This document shows, in pieces, positions 7,094 through 39,786 of a stretch of 39,786 bases of DNA (positions within the stretch are counted from its first letter, which is position 1; the number at the start of each line of letters is the position of its first letter). The stretch lies in contig CANQRA010000005.1 of the NCBI GenBank assembly GCA_947626125.1, positions 1-39,786 of the forward strand, written 5' to 3'. The notes under the pieces were generated by a model, which was not told where the DNA came from, ran no database searches, and saw only the letters and a program-made list of their open reading frames with translations. Source of the DNA: an uncultured Bacilli bacterium (GTDB taxonomy: Bacteria; Bacillota_I; Bacilli_A; RF39; UBA660). The position numbers and the translations under genes are program-made.

Positions 7094-7567
7094 TTATTCA
7101 CAACTACAAGTTTCGGCTTGTTCATTCCAAGTACCAACATTTAAATTACCATTTTTACTAAAATCACTATAAGGTTCATTTATAAACCAATATTCATCGC
7201 CTTTTTTAAGGGATAAATTATATCCTACTTCTTTACCGTTTTCAATATTGATTTCGACTTTACCTTTATAAGTATCTTTATCTAGGGCAGATATCCCAGC
7301 ATTGACTAAAGTTTCAATAGTAAAACATACTTTGCTAGCACTAACACAAGATTTATTATCGTTATTAACTTTTAAAGCCCCCATACTATAATTAAGGTAA
7401 GCATCTTTGGTATTCTTTACTGCCAGTGTGGCTTCTGTTCTAAAAGCTTCTTCTCTTGCTAAATTCATCGTCGGTAGAACATTCGTGGTTGCAAGAGCAA
7501 TAACTACCGCCAAAACTACAATAACCGCAAGTAATTCAATTAATGTAAATCCATCATTATTTTTCAT
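7094..7567 (-). CDS. Type IV pilin-like (pseudopilin) protein with prepilin N-terminal motif
   Basis: N-terminus MKNNDGFTLIELLAVIVVLAVVIALATT. Confidence 0.85.
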   Translation of the reverse strand: MKNNDGFTLIELLAVIVVLAVVIALATTNVLPTMNLAREEAFRTEATLAVKNTKDAYLNYSMGALKVNNDNKSCVSASKVCFTIETLVNAGISALDKDTYKGKVEINIENGKEVGYNLSLKKGDEYWFINEPYSDFSKNGNLNVGTWNEQAETCSCE

Positions 7568-7578
7568 GATTATTTCCC

Positions 7579-8100
7579 TTAAGATATATCTGAAGCACTA
7601 CAAGTAAATGTCCCTGTTTTATCATAATCTTGAACATCTTCTACTTTGACATTACCCGAAATACCATTTATCACATAGTCTTTATTATGCATTGTTATTG
7701 TATATTGATATCTTCCTGTTGTTCCATCGGTATTAGTGTTAACAACTATTTTCCCGGCATATTCAGGTTCTTCTCCTTCAAAGTATTCAGAATCTTTATC
7801 AATTAATCCTACATCAACTAAATATTTTAAAGAAAAACAGTATTTATTATTTCCTTTTTGATAATCTTTATCCATGGCTTTAGGTTCACTAATAGTACCA
7901 AGGTCATAAAAATTCAATATATTAGATGCTGTTCCCATAAAAATATTCGCTTCATCCGCAAAAGCACCTTTTTTTATGTTAGATACCATGGGCAAAACCG
8001 CAGTTGTACCGATGGCAATAACTACCGCTAAAACGACAATAACTGCTAATAATTCAATAAGAGTAAAACCTTTATTATTTTTAAAAGTTTCCATAATCAT
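7579..8100 (-). CDS. Type IV pilin-like (pseudopilin) protein with prepilin N-terminal motif
   Basis: N-terminus MIMETFKNNKGFTLIELLAVIVVLAVVIAIGTT; tandem with the preceding pilin gene. Confidence 0.85.
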   Translation of the reverse strand: MIMETFKNNKGFTLIELLAVIVVLAVVIAIGTTAVLPMVSNIKKGAFADEANIFMGTASNILNFYDLGTISEPKAMDKDYQKGNNKYCFSLKYLVDVGLIDKDSEYFEGEEPEYAGKIVVNTNTDGTTGRYQYTITMHNKDYVINGISGNVKVEDVQDYDKTGTFTCSASDIS

Positions 8101-10628: not shown

Positions 10629-13211
10629 TTAAGCGGGCTTTGCAACAAATGGGTCATTGTAAGTTCCCTTTCCTTGTGGTATTTTTGCTTTGGTAGAATC
10701 AAGATAGAAAACCGGGCGGATAGACAAGCAGGATCGAAGGTCCGTGAAGGAATTAAAACTCCCGAAAGAAGTAATCTCATGTGCACCGAACCCCTTGTCG
10801 CCATATCCATCTTTGTACAGTCCATATCGCGACATAGTCCATTCATATTGAAAATCACTTGTTTTTCCATTATTACTTATATATAACCAACTTGCATCAC
10901 ATCCTGCCCATGATGAATAACAATTTGTTGTTTCTAATCCTTGATATGAATAATAAAAATCATGTATATACATTAATCCTATTTTAGCTTGTATAGGTTT
11001 ATTTTTATCCCATGTGTATGTTCCTTTATTGTTTCCTGTATATGTTTGTTTACTCCCTGTTTCTATAGCATATACTTCATCAGCTGTTTTATCGGTTCCA
11101 ATGTCATGAGAACCGTCATCCCCTATATCTCCATATAACCAGTTGGTATCTTTTATCATGTTATACCATGTGGTATTTGTTTGTATGTATGTTGCGTTGG
11201 TTTTTGCGCTATCGATGAATAGATTGGTATTTCCATAATATCCTTGACTTGACCCTCCTGATTTACCATTTAATCTCTTGAATATATCTACATATGGCCA
11301 CTCACATGATGTCCCTGCACAATCAGAAGAACTATATTTATTATTCCATGCGAATTGATTTGTACTTCCTTCCCATATTGCTGTGTTTTTTATTAATTTT
11401 AAATCTCCTGTTTCTGGTTCGATTCCGATTATTCTATACATGTATTCACTTTCTACATTTCCAACACAATCAGTCTCTGGATGGTCTGTTCCAAAACATA
11501 TGAAGTTATCAACTATACCTGTACATCCACCATTTGCTGCACCACATGCTCCATAAAATCTATATAGGCCTCCTAATTCACCTGTACTTAATCCCGCTGG
11601 ATTCTTTGACTTAATATAATCTCCTAACTTTGCAGATTTGGTTGAAATTGTTTTATTTACTTCTTTATATCTCCCCGATAAATCTATTGTTTTTGCATAT
11701 ATTGTATAACTTGTATTTGCATTTAATCCTTTAATTGTACATGTATTACTGTTTATTGTTCCATTTGTTGTTTTACTTCCTATTACTGCCCAACATGTTG
11801 TTGTTACACCTCCACTTGGATAATTATCATTTGCTGTTATCGTATATGTTATTGTATCTGTTGTTGATGTCTCTTCACTTATACTTACACTTGGATCTGT
11901 ACTATCATATTTTATATTTCCTACTCTACTACTTGATACTCTTCCTGCTCCATCTCTTACAAAGGCATATAATGTCTTTTCCCCTTGTGTTGTTGATGGT
12001 ATTGTTTGTTCATTTAATGCTCCTGGAGATGAACTATCACTTTGCCAATCACATCCACTTACACTATTAGATGTATTTATACAAAAGCTTACTACATCAT
12101 TTGAACTCCATGTTACATTATAATTTACTTTTGTTGTTTGTGTATATCCATTTGTTAAATCATATCCTGTATTCGCTTTATTTCCTGTTATTGTAAAATT
12201 ACCTATTACGGGATTTGTTTTATCTAAGGTTATGGTTTGGCTTGTACTTCCTATATTCCCTGCTTTATCTTTGACATTTATTGTTATTGTTTTGGCTCCT
12301 TCTGTATCATTTACACTCATTCCTACATCAGTTAATGTTTTATTTGTACTACTTATATATGACGTACAATCTCCTTCTCCTATACAATAGCTATCCATGT
12401 TATCTTCTGTTATATTTGCTGTATATGTTATACTTTTGGTTTGTGTATATATGTCACCATTAATTAAGGTTTGACTTGTATCTGCTGTTCCTTTTAATGT
12501 TAATGTTACTATAGGGGCTGTTCTATCTACAGTTATAGTTTGAACAGCTACTTGTGATACATTCCTAGCTTTATCTCTTATATAAGCATTAATTGTTTTA
12601 GTTCCTTCTGTATTTACTGTTATACTTCCATTTATACTTTGTGCTTTATTTGTTTTCTTCCAGTCACTTTCAGTACATTCATTGCTTTCTTCTTTAACAC
12701 AATAATAAACTACATCAGTGTCATTCCAACTAAAGTTATAATTTATAGTTGTATTATATATATAATCTTCTCTTGTTTTTCCTTCTTTATCTGTTCCACT
12801 TATACTCATATTTGTTATACTTGGGGCATCTTTATCTATATCAAAATACATTTGACAATATATTGATATTGTTGTTTCTAATCTTATTCTTCCTTCATCT
12901 GTTTGACTTACTTTTTCTTTTACTTCGCTTCCATGATAATCAAAACACTTGGTCATACTTGTATTTAATATATAACCTTGTGTTGGATAATCATTACCCT
13001 CTTGTTTAACATAATTAGAACTGCCTTTTTCACTTTGCAAATAAATTCCAAAGTCATTGACATTGATATATTGATTATTTAGTTTATTTGTTTCTAATGT
13101 ATAACTATTCCTTACTTTATGGTCATGGTATTTATCTACTTGTAATATTAATATAGCTATTACTACAAACATTATGGTACTTATTATAAAATATTTCTTT
13201 TGTTCTTCCAT
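10629..13211 (-). CDS. Signal-anchored surface protein with Ig-like repeats and a C-terminal DGR-type variable (C-type-lectin-like) domain
   Basis: 860 aa; N-terminal TM; three repeats starting D[KRS]xxP with DKAGN-type motifs plus a fourth FN3-like unit; C-terminus SRYG...LRSCLSIRPVFYLDSTKAKIPQGKGTYNDPF, like the gene at the right window edge. Confidence 0.85.
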   Translation of the reverse strand: MEEQKKYFIISTIMFVVIAILILQVDKYHDHKVRNSYTLETNKLNNQYINVNDFGIYLQSEKGSSNYVKQEGNDYPTQGYILNTSMTKCFDYHGSEVKEKVSQTDEGRIRLETTISIYCQMYFDIDKDAPSITNMSISGTDKEGKTREDYIYNTTINYNFSWNDTDVVYYCVKEESNECTESDWKKTNKAQSINGSITVNTEGTKTINAYIRDKARNVSQVAVQTITVDRTAPIVTLTLKGTADTSQTLINGDIYTQTKSITYTANITEDNMDSYCIGEGDCTSYISSTNKTLTDVGMSVNDTEGAKTITINVKDKAGNIGSTSQTITLDKTNPVIGNFTITGNKANTGYDLTNGYTQTTKVNYNVTWSSNDVVSFCINTSNSVSGCDWQSDSSSPGALNEQTIPSTTQGEKTLYAFVRDGAGRVSSSRVGNIKYDSTDPSVSISEETSTTDTITYTITANDNYPSGGVTTTCWAVIGSKTTNGTINSNTCTIKGLNANTSYTIYAKTIDLSGRYKEVNKTISTKSAKLGDYIKSKNPAGLSTGELGGLYRFYGACGAANGGCTGIVDNFICFGTDHPETDCVGNVESEYMYRIIGIEPETGDLKLIKNTAIWEGSTNQFAWNNKYSSSDCAGTSCEWPYVDIFKRLNGKSGGSSQGYYGNTNLFIDSAKTNATYIQTNTTWYNMIKDTNWLYGDIGDDGSHDIGTDKTADEVYAIETGSKQTYTGNNKGTYTWDKNKPIQAKIGLMYIHDFYYSYQGLETTNCYSSWAGCDASWLYISNNGKTSDFQYEWTMSRYGLYKDGYGDKGFGAHEITSFGSFNSFTDLRSCLSIRPVFYLDSTKAKIPQGKGTYNDPFVAKPA
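10700..10829 (-). other. Candidate DGR variable repeat (VR-like) at the 3' end of the surface protein gene
   Basis: Locally GC-rich, many NNY codons, ends in CGCCCGGTTTTCTATCTTG, which matches 18/19 nt of the right-edge VR-like block. Confidence 0.5.
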
Positions 13212-34712: not shown

Positions 34713-35764
34713 TTATTTTTCTCCTTTTTTTTATGTTCATATAAAATATCGGTATTTAATATTACAAATAATAACATTAATAAAACGACTAAATATAAAA
34801 CAATCGCCGCTTTATTTTTGCCAATCGCATATATAATGGAAATAGCTGAGAATATAATATTAATTAAATAAATAATAATAATACTTACTTTAGGAGAAAA
34901 TTTTAATTTTAAAAGTTGATGATGAAAGTGTTCTTTATCCGGTGTACCAATACTTTCCCCTTTTAATAGTCTTCTTAAAATAGCCAGTAATGTGTCGAAA
35001 ATCGGAATAGCTAAAATAGTTATCGGAATAACGAGACTTGTAAGGGTGGCTACTTTAAAACCTAAAAGAGCAATAACCGCGATCATAAAGCCTAAAAATA
35101 AACTACCGGAATCCCCCATGAATATTTTAGCGGGAGGAAAATTATTAACAAGAAATCCTAAAGTAGAACCTAACATTATAAAAGTAAGGATAACATCTAA
35201 TCCACCCATTTTATTTAAGATAAAAGCAATAATACCAATGGTTAAGAAATAAATTGCACTAATACCCCCAGCTAGGCCATCAAGACCATCAATTAAATTA
35301 ATGGCATTAGAAATAGCTACGATAAAAAATGTTGATAACACATAACTTATTAACAAATTAAATTTAATATTTACTCCTAAAAAACTAATTTCACTAAAAT
35401 ATACTTGCCCATAGATAACTACGATTAAAGCCGCGATTATTTGTACTAAAAATTTATATCGAGCTTTAATGGGTTTAATATCATCAAAGGTGCCGACTAA
35501 AAAGATAATGAATGAACCAATTAAAATCGATATCATTTGAGTAGTAATGGAACCATATAAAATATATCCAAGCAAAAAGGAGCCAAAAATAGCAAGACCA
35601 CCTAACCTTGGCATTGCTTTTTTATGGATTTTCCTTTCATTAGGTAAATCAATGGCTCCAATATGATTAGCAGTTTTAATAGAGATGGGTATTAAAAATA
35701 AACTTGCGACAAAAGTAATTAAGATAATTTCTATAATACTATGACCATTTATAATAAAATTCAT
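34709..35764 (-). CDS. tagO: Undecaprenyl-phosphate GlcNAc-1-phosphate transferase (MraY/WecA/TagO family)
   Basis: 351 aa; KAMPRLGGLAIF, DDIKPIKARYKFL, NLIDGLDGLAGG, IFMGDSGSLFLGF, PDKEHFHHQLLKL. Confidence 0.93.
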   Translation of the reverse strand: MNFIINGHSIIEIILITFVASLFLIPISIKTANHIGAIDLPNERKIHKKAMPRLGGLAIFGSFLLGYILYGSITTQMISILIGSFIIFLVGTFDDIKPIKARYKFLVQIIAALIVVIYGQVYFSEISFLGVNIKFNLLISYVLSTFFIVAISNAINLIDGLDGLAGGISAIYFLTIGIIAFILNKMGGLDVILTFIMLGSTLGFLVNNFPPAKIFMGDSGSLFLGFMIAVIALLGFKVATLTSLVIPITILAIPIFDTLLAILRRLLKGESIGTPDKEHFHHQLLKLKFSPKVSIIIIYLINIIFSAISIIYAIGKNKAAIVLYLVVLLMLLFVILNTDILYEHKKKEKNK

Positions 35765-35781
35765 TTAATACCACCATAATT

Positions 35782-35811
35782 ATTATAACTTAACTTCTAA
35801 ATAAATTGCAA
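35782..35811 (-). promoter_or_regulatory. Candidate sigma-A-type promoter of the polysaccharide cluster
   Basis: Minus strand TTGCAA-N18-TATAAT just upstream of the tagO-like start. Confidence 0.5.
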
Positions 35812-35844
35812 TATAATAACGAGTTTTAGTTTCTTTCAAAACAT

Positions 35845-35889
35845 TTTCATTTCGCAAAAACCAAAAAAATTGTATTTTGCGAAATGAAA
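35845..35889. promoter_or_regulatory. Perfect 15-bp inverted repeat overlapping the ATPase promoter
   Basis: TTTCATTTCGCAAAA (35845-35859) and TTTTGCGAAATGAAA (35875-35889); -35 TTGTAT at 35870-35875, -10 TATAAT at 35893-35898. Confidence 0.75.
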
Positions 35890-35917
35890 TGATATAATGC
35901 TAGCAGAGGTGATTAGC

Positions 35918-37114
35918 GTGAAAATAATTAAAAGAGAGTATTTGAACGATATAATAGATGTTATGGGAACACCAGATATAAAGGTTATTACGGGTGTTAG
36001 ACGGAGTGGAAAATCACAACTACTTAATATGTTTATTGACTATGTTAAAGCAAATGACAATAATTCCAATATTATTTATATTGATTATAATCTTGATAAA
36101 TTCGATAATTTAAAACAATATAAAGAACTAATCAATTATGTTTCTGAAAAATACGATTCTAAAAAAAATAATTTTATTATGATTGATGAAGTTCAAATGT
36201 GTAATGGTTTTGAAAAAGCTATAAATAATTTTCATGCTGAAGAGAAATATGATATTTATATAACTGGTTCTAATGCCTTTCTTTTATCGAGCGATTTAGC
36301 CACTTTATTTACTGGCAGAACCTTTAGTATTGAAATATTTCCTTTTTCATATAAAGAGTTTCTGCAATATTATGATTTAAAAAATAATGATGAAGCCTTC
36401 GATAGATATGTTTTAGAAGGAGGATTTGCTGGTTCATATTTATATAAAGATTTAGATAAAAAGTATAATTATTTATCTGATGTTTATAAAACAATGATTG
36501 ATAGAGACATAGTAAGGAGAAACAAAATACAAAACATTCCTTTACTAGATAGTATTAGTGATTTTTTAATAGATAATATTGCTATACTTACATCTTATAG
36601 AAACATTACTGATACATTAAACACTTTTAAAGCCGAGACGAATGATAAAACGGTTGCATCTTATATTAGATATTTATGTGAATCTTTTGCATTTTATAAA
36701 GTTAGAAGATATGATATTCATAAGAAGAAATATCTAGCTTCTCAGGATAAATATTATTTGTCAGACCATGCAATAAAATACGCTATACAAGGGACAAAAA
36801 ATATGAATTATGGTAGTATCTATGAAAATATAGTTGCAATGGAATTAATTAGAAGAGGATATGAAATATATGTTGGCGTTTTATATGAGAAAGAAATTGA
36901 TTTTGTGGCAATGAAAAGAAATGAAAAAATCTATATTCAAGTTTCAGACGATATAGGAAGTGATTTTGAAAATGATACTTTCAAACGCGAAGTTGACTCT
37001 TTATTGAAAATAAAAGATGCATACCCTAAAATGCTTATAGCTAGAACCAGACATGACAAATATTTATATGAAGGAGTCCAAATTATAGATATATCAAAAT
37101 GGTTATGCGAATAA
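35918..37114 (+). CDS. AAA_14/DUF4143-type ATP-binding protein
   Basis: Walker A TGVRRSGKSQLL, Walker B NFIMIDEVQ, ITGSNAFLLSSDLATLFTGRTFSIEIFPFSYKEFL, C-terminal EIDFVA. Track starts at 35897; GTG at 35918 with AGAGGTGA upstream is more likely. Confidence 0.9.
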   Translation: MKIIKREYLNDIIDVMGTPDIKVITGVRRSGKSQLLNMFIDYVKANDNNSNIIYIDYNLDKFDNLKQYKELINYVSEKYDSKKNNFIMIDEVQMCNGFEKAINNFHAEEKYDIYITGSNAFLLSSDLATLFTGRTFSIEIFPFSYKEFLQYYDLKNNDEAFDRYVLEGGFAGSYLYKDLDKKYNYLSDVYKTMIDRDIVRRNKIQNIPLLDSISDFLIDNIAILTSYRNITDTLNTFKAETNDKTVASYIRYLCESFAFYKVRRYDIHKKKYLASQDKYYLSDHAIKYAIQGTKNMNYGSIYENIVAMELIRRGYEIYVGVLYEKEIDFVAMKRNEKIYIQVSDDIGSDFENDTFKREVDSLLKIKDAYPKMLIARTRHDKYLYEGVQIIDISKWLCE

Positions 37115-37180
37115 ATATTTAATAAAAAGAAAACCCATGGAATTAACGGGCTTTCTAACATATACTCTACTACTTTATGG

Positions 37181-37450
37181 TTAATTGCTTTTACTTAATA
37201 TCAAATCTACTAACTTTAATAAATTTATTTTAATATAATAAAAATCATATAAATTATTTTCGTATTTTTTATTTTCCACTAAAGACATATTTTTTATGAC
37301 GACATAATTTACATTACTATTATTTTTCTTAAGTAAATTTAACAATTCTTTATCTACCCCATAACTAACTAATTTATTACGCTTTTCAAATATAATCACC
37401 GATTTTGGAAAAACACCTTTAAGAAATAAATAACGATTTTTAACTCCCAT
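37181..37450 (-). CDS. Small protein of unknown function downstream of the DGR RT
   Basis: Track ORF 37181..37465 overlaps the RT stop; likely start MGVKNRYLFLKG at 37450; no recognised family. Confidence 0.5.
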   Translation of the reverse strand: MGVKNRYLFLKGVFPKSVIIFEKRNKLVSYGVDKELLNLLKKNNSNVNYVVIKNMSLVENKKYENNLYDFYYIKINLLKLVDLILSKSN

Positions 37451-38561
37451 TTTCAAATCTTCCAAAGAAATTTCTATCTATAATTCTTCTAACTTTCATA
37501 ACATTACCAAACTTACGGTTATAATAATACGACATTATTGAACAAAAACAACAATTTAAATCTATATATCCCTTATTGTACATATAAAAAACATTTTTGA
37601 CTCTCTTTTTTATCTTTTCGCAAGCTTCTTTTCGTACTTTGATTATTGTTTTTTTATTTATTATTTTATAAGTATATCCCAAAAAAGAAAACCCTTCATT
37701 TTCTCTTACAATTTTTGTTTTCTTTTTATTAAGTTTTAATTTATACTTATTTTTTAAAATATCTTCTATTTCTTGTAATGCATTTTCTAGTATTTTTTTA
37801 TCATGATGAATTAATATAAAATCATCCATATATCTTATATAATATTTTACATGTAAATTATTTACTATATAATGATCTAAGGCATATAAATAAAAAATTG
37901 ATAAAAACTGACTTGTCATATTACCTATCGGTAAACCTTTACCTTTATAATATAAAGGTAAAGCGTTTACTTCTTCTTCTAAATTAGGATGAACACTTAA
38001 ATATTTTTCTTTAATATCTAAGATCTTTTTATTAATATATTCCCTATTTGTACTATCAATAATTATGTTTAAGAATTTATATTCATCTAAGCTTAATTTA
38101 TCTTTTAACATCTTTTTTAAAACATCATGATCAATGGAGTAAAAGTATTTATTAATATCTAATTTTAAAATATAAAATTTTTCATGTTTTTTATTAAGTT
38201 CAAGATATTTTTTTAATAATTTAATACCATAATCAGTACCCATATTTTTTCTTGTGGCAATATTACGAGAATCTAAGTATTTAGATAATTTCTTTTCTAA
38301 AATATATCTAGCTACAAAATGATTAATAATTTTATCAGAAACACCTAAGGACATTACTATACGATGTTTAGGTTCTTTTATCAAAAATATATTATAATAA
38401 CCTCCATCATAATTTCCTGTTTTAAGAATATTTACTATCTTACTTATATTTTGAAATTTATTTTTTTCAAAATTATAAATTTTATTCTTATTTTTCACTT
38501 TTTTAGATATTTCTAATTCATATAATTCTAAAACATTCTTTAAATTAACATTTTCTTTCAT
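37440..38561 (-). CDS. Diversity-generating-retroelement-type reverse transcriptase
   Basis: 373 aa; RT motifs FYILKLDINKYFYSID, GLPIGNMTSQFLSIFYLYALD (IGxxxSQ form typical of DGR RTs), YYIRYMDDFILI, FLGYTYK; associated with TR, Avd-like and target genes. Confidence 0.88.
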   Translation of the reverse strand: MKENVNLKNVLELYELEISKKVKNKNKIYNFEKNKFQNISKIVNILKTGNYDGGYYNIFLIKEPKHRIVMSLGVSDKIINHFVARYILEKKLSKYLDSRNIATRKNMGTDYGIKLLKKYLELNKKHEKFYILKLDINKYFYSIDHDVLKKMLKDKLSLDEYKFLNIIIDSTNREYINKKILDIKEKYLSVHPNLEEEVNALPLYYKGKGLPIGNMTSQFLSIFYLYALDHYIVNNLHVKYYIRYMDDFILIHHDKKILENALQEIEDILKNKYKLKLNKKKTKIVRENEGFSFLGYTYKIINKKTIIKVRKEACEKIKKRVKNVFYMYNKGYIDLNCCFCSIMSYYYNRKFGNVMKVRRIIDRNFFGRFENGS

Positions 38562-38907
38562 TTTTTATCCAACTATAAATCATTTTATTTATTTCTTCTA
38601 ATTCACCAACTTTTTTTAAGCATTCTTTTTCGCTTATATATCTTTTCTTATAGGCTCTTTCCAGATAAAAATCCAACATATTAATTTTAGCTACAATTTC
38701 TATTTGAATATCTTTTTTCTTATCTAAATTATCCACATGATTAGCTACATATACTAATTCTAAAACTTTTAAAGAATCTTTATATAATAAATCTTTATTA
38801 ATATATTCTTTTTTAGGAAAATTTACTAAAATTCTTTCTAAGTCTAAGATAAATTTTTTCGTATTTTTAACAATTAAAAATCTTTCACTATGATATTGCA
38901 TTTTCAA
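38545..38907 (-). CDS. Avd-like four-helix-bundle accessory protein
   Basis: 120 aa all-helical; 'KVLELVYVANHVDNLDKKKDIQIEIVAKINMLDFYLERAYKKRYISEKECLKKVGELEEINKMIYSWIK' fits the Avd pattern; overlaps the RT start. Confidence 0.75.
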   Translation of the reverse strand: MKMQYHSERFLIVKNTKKFILDLERILVNFPKKEYINKDLLYKDSLKVLELVYVANHVDNLDKKKDIQIEIVAKINMLDFYLERAYKKRYISEKECLKKVGELEEINKMIYSWIKNERKC

Positions 38908-39262
38908 TAACTTTTAAAATATTCTCTAACTCTTCGCCTGAAAGACTATTAATTTTATTAAATATCTTATTAAACCTCTCTTCAACGGATAAATTATTTA
39001 AGCCTTTTTTCTTTATACTTTTGTAGCTATTCAATTTTTTAAAATTGTTTTCGATAATTAAAGCATCTTTTTCATATACTTGATATGAAACTTCATTTTC
39101 TTCCAAAGCATTTATAACTTTATTATAAGCTGACTCTGGAAAACCAACACCACCCTTATCTTTTACGATTTTATAACCTAGTAGATAATGCAAAATAATG
39201 GCATCATCGCCAAAAGTATTATAAAACTTACCTGATTTTCTAATTTCTACATAATCGCGCAT
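38888..39262 (-). CDS. MutS domain I-like small protein (DGR accessory, MSL-type)
   Basis: 124 aa; 'GKFYNTFGDDAIILHYLLGYKIVKDKGGVGFPESAYNKVINALEENEVSYQVYEKD' resembles MutS-I (FYE.FGEDA...LG...GVP......Y...L...GY.V...EQ). Confidence 0.65.
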   Translation of the reverse strand: MRDYVEIRKSGKFYNTFGDDAIILHYLLGYKIVKDKGGVGFPESAYNKVINALEENEVSYQVYEKDALIIENNFKKLNSYKSIKKKGLNNLSVEERFNKIFNKINSLSGEELENILKVIENAIS

Positions 39263-39439
39263 CTCAACCTCTTTCTATTACATAAAAACTCGATTAAAAA
39301 TTCACGACAAACGACATGACGAAGTATAAAGGCGGTCTCGTAAGACCAACCATCCTCGTCTCCATTTCGGATAAAACTATCCATGATAATCTTTGTCTTC
39401 TATCTTTCCAAATATATAGCCTTGACCATATAATCTCAA
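39263..39439 (-). ncRNA. Putative DGR spacer (Sp) RNA region between TR and accessory genes
   Basis: About 177 nt between TR and the MSL-like start; contains GGTCT-TACG-AGACC hairpin on the minus strand; position matches the TR-Sp arrangement of known DGRs. Confidence 0.45.
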
Positions 39440-39558
39440 CAAGTACTAGAAGTCTCGGGCGCACCGCATTGTTGTTGTTCAGATTGTTGTTGTTCATGTT
39501 GCCATTCGAATTCACATTCCACGCATTGTAATTCCCGTTGCTATTCTGACCATAACGC
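39440..39558 (-). repeat. DGR template repeat (TR)
   Basis: Minus strand CGTTATGGTCAGAATAGCAACGGGAATTACAATGCGTGG...ATGAACAACAACAATCTGAACAACAACAATGCGGTGCGCCCG: run of AAY codons aligned to the VR-like 3' end of the adjacent gene. Confidence 0.85.
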
Positions 39559-39620
39559 TTTTTTCTTCCTCAAGATTACCATATCTCTATATTAAATCTA
39601 TAAAGACCTTAATTAACGCG

Positions 39621-39650
39621 CCGCCCGGAGGCTTAAACCCTCCAGGGCGG
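39621..39650. other. GC-rich hairpin downstream of the truncated target gene
   Basis: CCGCCCGGAGG-CTTAAAC-CCTCC(A)GGGCGG: 11 bp with one bulged A; very GC-rich for this window. Confidence 0.7.
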
Positions 39651-39657
39651 TATTTTC

Positions 39658-39786
39658 TACGCCGTCCCCACAATAAACGGTGAATCCACAGTCCCTTTTC
39701 CCGAACTAATTTCCGCCGTTTCAGACCCAAGATAGAAGACCGGGCGAACGCCATTGCTGCCGCTCAGGACGCCGCTGCTCATATAG
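39658..39786 (-). CDS. 3' end of a DGR target gene (variable lectin-like C-terminus), truncated at the window edge
   Basis: Minus strand, open to the edge: YMSSGVLSGSNGVRPVFYLGSETAEISSGKGTVDSPFIVGTA*; resembles RPVFYLDSTKAKIPQGKGTYNDPFVAKPA of 10629..13211. Confidence 0.75.
39728..39786 (-). repeat. Partial DGR variable repeat (VR)
   Basis: ATGAGCAGCGGCGTCCTGAGCGGCAGCAATGGCGTTCGCCCG aligns gap-free to TR ATGAACAACAACAATCTGAACAACAACAATGCGGTGCGCCCG; 10 of 14 mismatches fall at TR adenines. Confidence 0.7.

Follow-up and report, generated by a model that had tools for sequence, protein, structure and literature searches.

We have analyzed a window of 39,786 bases, which is the entire contig C5 of an uncultured gut Bacilli genome of 1.24 Mb in 92 contigs. 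Near the right end of this contig, and all on the minus strand, lie a template repeat (TR) and three protein genes of DGR type. The reverse transcriptase (RT) gene (37440..38561) encodes 373 aa and matches RVT_1 with an E value of 6.2e-18; its motifs IGNMTSQ and YMDD are invariant across 14 relatives and fit the DGR type ([ILV]GxxxSQ, YxDD). The best match of the RT profile among PDB entries is 8ub7, annotated as a reverse transcriptase, which we take to be the structure of the BPP-1 DGR RT. Ahead of the RT gene is an Avd-like gene of 120 aa (38545..38907), whose annotated start is a TTG with an ATG two codons later. It matches PF22296 (bAvd) with E 2.5e-08 and NF033474 with E 1.1e-09, both scores falling under the curated cut-off. 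The third gene, an MSL accessory gene of 124 aa (38888..39262), contains MutS domain I (PF01624; Pfam E 9.2e-07, 29.5 bits versus a cut-off of 20.6), and MSL is among the listed DGR accessory proteins (PMC10053308). The positions of both accessory genes are kept in 16 related loci. The gene order TR-MSL-Avd-RT is likewise kept in related loci, with the TR found upstream in most of the 16 by BLAST.

A sequence-only reading of this DNA had placed a template repeat made of clustered AAY codons at 39440-39558. The right edge of this span stands, but its left edge was drawn 16 nt too far, since the part shared with the variable repeats (VRs) starts at 39456; the TR is thus a segment of 103 nt (39456..39558, minus strand) with 37 A, 26 G, 21 C and 19 T. 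The reading frame that had been claimed is indeed open on the minus strand and gives RYGQNSNGNYNAWNVNSNGNMNNNNLNNNNAVRP. AAY codons make up 16 of its 34 codons (8 AAC, 8 AAT), and 21 codons contain an A. Elsewhere in the window no 34-codon stretch in any frame holds more than 12 AAY codons, and none of 20,000 base shuffles reached 16. The adjoining RT, Avd and MSL genes and the remote VRs with their adenine-biased mismatches strongly support the identification of this stretch as a DGR template repeat.

Copies of the TR with 74-76% identity are found on contigs C57 and C15 of the same genome. When the TR was aligned to its genomic copies and mismatches were scored by TR base, the check originally proposed, the mismatches were concentrated on adenines and not evenly spread. 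In the VR on C15, 25 of 27 mismatches fall at TR adenines (P 8e-13) and 64 of 66 non-A bases agree with the TR; the corresponding counts are 21 of 26 (P 7e-8) for a VR on C50 and 19 of 25 (P 3e-6) for the one on C57, which has 6 non-A mismatches. The altered adenines read G, T or C in the VRs. Remoter copies on C14 and C4 show a weaker A bias. The sequence-only reading had predicted that the Asn codons alone would be diversified, and this proved too narrow, since codons containing A vary generally (CAG to CGG, TAT to TGG, AGC to AAC); any TR adenine is mutable. Of the residues expected to stay fixed, W, L and RP are unchanged in the C15 VR, as is A. Met does not belong to this scaffold: the VRs of C15 and C57 have TTG where the TR has ATG, and only the C50 VR keeps the ATG. 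The 3' ends of TR and VR share a G+C-rich GCGGTGCGCCCG, followed by AGACTTCTAG in the TR and GTCTTCTA in the VR, which are putatively IMH* and IMH.

The VR lies near the 3' end of its target genes on C15 (837 aa) and C57 (848 aa), with the stop codon about 29 codons past the VR. Both target proteins carry a hydrophobic segment at the N-terminus and show weak similarity to Ig-like domains. Their C-terminal part recurs at 26 places in the window's genome; these include the TR itself and two domains of one gene, and therefore represent roughly twenty genes or fragments. The VR-like regions of this family have mostly drifted from the present TR. DUF6273 is the sole recurring Pfam match, found in 7 of 19 target C-termini with a best E value of 6.1e-06. 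For the variable domain, where a C-type lectin or Ig fold would be expected in a DGR, an AlphaFold model of the target C-terminus is of low confidence (pLDDT 48) and Foldseek was uninformative. The sole hit of a PDB sequence search with the target domain, to ribosomal protein L13-type chains, was at chance level and was discarded. Several copies of this surface-type family (about 20 places genome-wide) are located at contig ends, where they probably break the assembly.

A search for DNA repeats inside the window does not find the VRs, since these are located on other contigs. The window does contain two members of the target family, both on the minus strand. One is an 860-aa paralogue (10629..13211), 68% identical over the C-terminal part, that has a hydrophobic segment at its N-terminus and ends in a VR-type C-terminus; Ig-like repeats are present in relatives. 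Its VR-like region has diverged, and the mismatches to the present TR are not biased towards A. The other is a target-type gene that runs off the contig and leaves only its 3' tail (39657..39786), with the translation YMSSGVLSGSNGVRPVFYLGSETAEISSGKGTVDSPFIVGTA* and a paralogue match. The VR-like part of this tail (39741..39782) has 11 A and 5 non-A mismatches over 45 aligned columns (P 0.009); we rejected it as the main VR because its non-A mismatches are too numerous. Elsewhere in the window, at 7094-8100, are two short minus-strand ORFs that resemble prepilin-type genes and whose 5' ends carry a 68-nt repeat of 84% identity (D2).

The TR is more than a bare repeat: alignment of relatives revealed conservation on both sides of it, and a structured RNA gene is built around it. 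The inferred TR-RNA unit of about 265 nt (39316..39580, minus strand) consists of a 5' arm, the TR, a structured 3' domain and a terminator-like hairpin, and was defined by covariation over 24 units, whose flanks were spliced together, aligned and analyzed with RNAalifold and a pair count. The structure comprises 7 helices with 42 pairs altogether; 98.0% of the cells are paired, and compensatory changes occur at 25 pairs. Cells with double changes number 127, versus 39.7 expected by shuffling (0 of 500 shuffles reaching the observed value) and 11-22 in slid controls. The 5' arm, GGUAAUCUU (39572..39580), lies just upstream of the TR and pairs across it with the 3' arm, AAGAUUAUC (39385..39393), which starts about 60 nt downstream of the TR. 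This TR-bracketing helix is present in 24 of 24 units, with double changes at two pairs; one lineage has the doubly changed arms GGCAGUCUU/AAGGCUGUC. The 3' arm is recovered both by covariation and by the single-sequence fold. In a second element, CUUCUAU just past the TR pairs with AUAGAAG, though not perfectly in every unit. Next comes a never-varying ACAAA, located between this putative IMH*-pairing stem and the bracketing helix. Helices 6-7 of the covariation analysis form the terminator-like hairpin that closes the unit (39333..39348). The covariance model matches the window at 39316-39456 with E=1.3e-27 and 137 bits. Folding of the window RNA as a single sequence gives the same helices at an energy not under that of shuffles (z -0.08); minimum free energy was accordingly rejected as support, and our claim is based on covariation. 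An Rfam search over 35500-39786 returned only a chance-level match, with E 0.18 and far under the gathering score.

Upstream of the 5' arm, an exact TATAAT ending 6-8 nt ahead of the arm is present in 41 of 49 units, versus 9 of 757 background windows. The window has the -10-like TAATAT at the same place (39589..39594, minus strand). Given this box and the terminator-like hairpin, the TR RNA is likely to be transcribed as a separate unit.

The covariance model of the 3' domain was also used to search 38 genomes of the genus. TR-RNA units were found in 18 of these, with 1-13 units each: 13 in G019, 12 in G026, 11 in G013, 7 in G032, 6 each in G022 and G007, and one in the window's genome, where the same search gave no further unit (none above E 0.27). 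Units occur in 16 of the 17 genomes that have an RT match and otherwise only in G013 and, weakly, in G029; in the Fisher test of RT against units, the partial, divergent RT match of G017 was scored as no RT. G007, G019, G022, G026 and G032 have one RT apiece. In G013, a 94%-complete genome with 11 units and A-biased VRs, no DGR RT was detected; the RT may have been lost, be unassembled or be supplied otherwise. Tandem units can stand beside the RT, four in L038 and three in L037. Those on other contigs frequently follow a VR gene at a distance of 29-200 nt, and many are far from the sole detectable RT. The TR RNA is also carried by other Bacilli lineages, and 4 of 9 searched have, besides the RT-linked unit, another strong one located apart from it.

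The remaining units have PD-(D/E)XK (PF12784), DUF3800 or unrelated genes as neighbours. The PF12784 genes, which belong to a PD-(D/E)XK nuclease family transposase and are often found beside units (L221:5011-5829, L218:5329-6171, L203:4381-5271, L220:5590-6450), are a possible vehicle for unit spread. Between two units at L216:5092-5625 is a 178-aa gene that matches the CdiA C-terminal domain (PF18451, E 2.4e-15). Near L035 3183-3330 an RT-proximal unit has kept both flanks around a missing TR, with an intact-TR unit upstream. At L046:1243-5773 and L045:1526-2616 the RT genes are split, with about 3.4 kb separating the two halves in L046, or contain in-frame stops, and these DGRs are decayed or interrupted.

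To see how dispersed templates relate to target genes, the VR genes of three genomes (G013, G022 and G019) were compared with all of their own TRs. As a reference, the RT-proximal TR/VR pair of G022 differs at 17 of 32 A and 1 of 74 non-A positions. The dispersed G022 TR C7a differs from a VR on C38 at 12 of 37 A and 3 of 72 non-A positions, and the RT-proximal TR fits this VR worse, with 17 of 74 non-A mismatches and 5 gaps. TR C4a of G013 shows 15/39 A and 3/76 non-A mismatches to a VR on C6, and TR C11 of G019 shows 20/39 A and 8/73 non-A mismatches to a VR on C44. Differences between TRs are without A bias (in G013, 38/249 A versus 68/509 non-A). The VR-type genes that match a present TR well are a minority, most being too diverged, and G019, G026 and G032 share TRs and so are not independent. 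Because dispersed units match VRs of their own with A-biased changes, they appear to be in use, or to have been so recently. No other RT was found, from which we infer that a single RT serves them in trans, with the proviso that all genomes are fragmented MAGs (40-150 contigs), in which a second RT may be unassembled.

Some features of these genomes are what would be expected if the dispersed units were inactive copies or remnants carried along with target genes, with only the RT-proximal TR in use: certain units lack a well-fitting VR in the set of genes compared (for example several of the 13 in G019), the L035 unit has lost its TR, and G013 combines units with an undetected RT. Such an account is nevertheless unlikely, as several dispersed TRs agree with VRs elsewhere at non-A bases where the RT-proximal TR does not, their changes are concentrated on A, and the dispersed units keep both structure and promoter box. 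Decay of the DGR in the window's own genome, where few VRs still match and the neighbouring target has drifted, is less probable again. The non-A mismatches of the C57 VR and of the contig-end tail would fit with it; however, the RT and accessory genes are intact, the C15 VR is nearly identical to the TR outside adenines, and the RNA unit scores highly against the covariance model. The TR of the closest relative (L042) moreover differs at non-A sites, so that evolution of the TR can account for old mismatches. We regard the system as a genuine DGR, working-looking and presumably active.

The number of contigs per MAG also raises the question of whether units of several species were binned together. 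We consider a binning artefact very improbable: G019, G022, G026 and G013 show contamination of 1-2%, the contigs that carry units are long (a 51-kb one in G019 holds four), and units reappear across many MAGs. Among these are other lineages with a pair of units, which in G061 share one contig at a distance of about 80 kb. Finally, the open frame of the TR, its homology to the coding VR and the large size of the target family could suggest paralogous coding repeats under positive selection with no retroelement activity, but this can practically be dismissed, as A is altered and the C or T of the same AAY codons is spared, and the TR is non-coding in context, inside a structured RNA and beside DGR RT, Avd and MSL genes.

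We are thus highly confident that 39456-39558 is a DGR template repeat, together with an RNA-unit mechanism and modular units served in trans in the genus. In the proposed mechanism, the unit's own promoter would drive the TR as a non-coding RNA of about 265 nt. The 5' end of this RNA would pair across the TR with the 3' spacer, thereby making the TR a loop on the structured 3' domain. The adjacent RT and Avd (and MSL) would then copy the TR, erring at adenines. With the G+C-rich end as its anchor, the cDNA would take the place of the homologous VR at the 3' end of remote surface-type genes. Formation of an RNP and cDNA priming are presumed in this scheme. In the genus the unit would act as a module, present several times per genome, in tandem or distant from the RT, each copy feeding its own VR genes and all of them probably served in trans by one RT. 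The broader proposition is that each template in this Bacilli lineage forms an autonomous non-coding RNA gene, comprising promoter, TR-bracketing helix, spacer domain and terminator, that such genes have multiplied to reach a dozen loci per genome, and that one RT-Avd-MSL complex works in trans on exchangeable templates that each have their own set of surface genes. It seems to us probable, with somewhat less assurance.

The system resembles the DGR of Bordetella phage BPP-1 in its RT, Avd, adenine mutagenesis (here read from sequences) and structured 3' spacer beside the TR. In BPP-1 this spacer recruits RT-Avd, and a spacer adenine primes cDNA at IMH* (PMC12875486), and by analogy the invariant ACAAA is a candidate cDNA priming site. 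The TR RNA of BPP-1 has avd coding sequence on its 5' side. The present TR, by contrast, precedes MSL-Avd-RT as an RNA gene in its own right, equipped with a promoter box, a 5' arm and a terminator, and its targets are remote. As in MSL-type DGRs, a MutS domain I protein adjoins the RT; RNA structure and dispersed TRs are not part of that account (PMC10053308). Remote targets diversified by a TR and RT elsewhere in the genome are known from Thiohalocapsa PB-PSB1 (PMC10907252); there, a complete DGR has remote targets and other DGR loci are incomplete, in contrast to the many complete, RT-less stand-alone TR-RNA genes seen here. Multi-TR/multi-VR DGRs, such as that of Stenotrophomonas with two TRs, share the presence of more than one TR and many VRs, but the accessible part of their description (PMC6642488) does not mention conserved TR-RNA genes that have promoter and terminator and are dispersed over as many as 13 loci. 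The Treponema denticola DGR is likewise cellular, with several remote surface targets; it differs in having one TR per genome and a known target fold (PMC4891356). Remote VRs, several TRs and action in trans are therefore already known (PMC6642488, PMC10907252). What seems to be new are stand-alone TR-RNA genes, multiplied in the genome, with promoter, bracketing helix and terminator, and probably served in trans. The open-access literature searched offered no precedent for dispersed or orphan TRs; its coverage is incomplete, which makes this absence weak evidence and the novelty provisional.

If one RT does serve many stand-alone templates, DGRs would resemble guide-RNA systems, in which an added template gene means an added set of targets. 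In genomes of this kind, most templates would escape a survey of TRs confined to the surroundings of the RT. With the covarying RNA there is a model for finding templates, for testing the features that recruit the RT and prime cDNA, and for designing modular template RNAs. Such an arrangement would also explain how a genome of 1.2-1.4 Mb keeps a family of 20-50 hypervariable surface-type genes.
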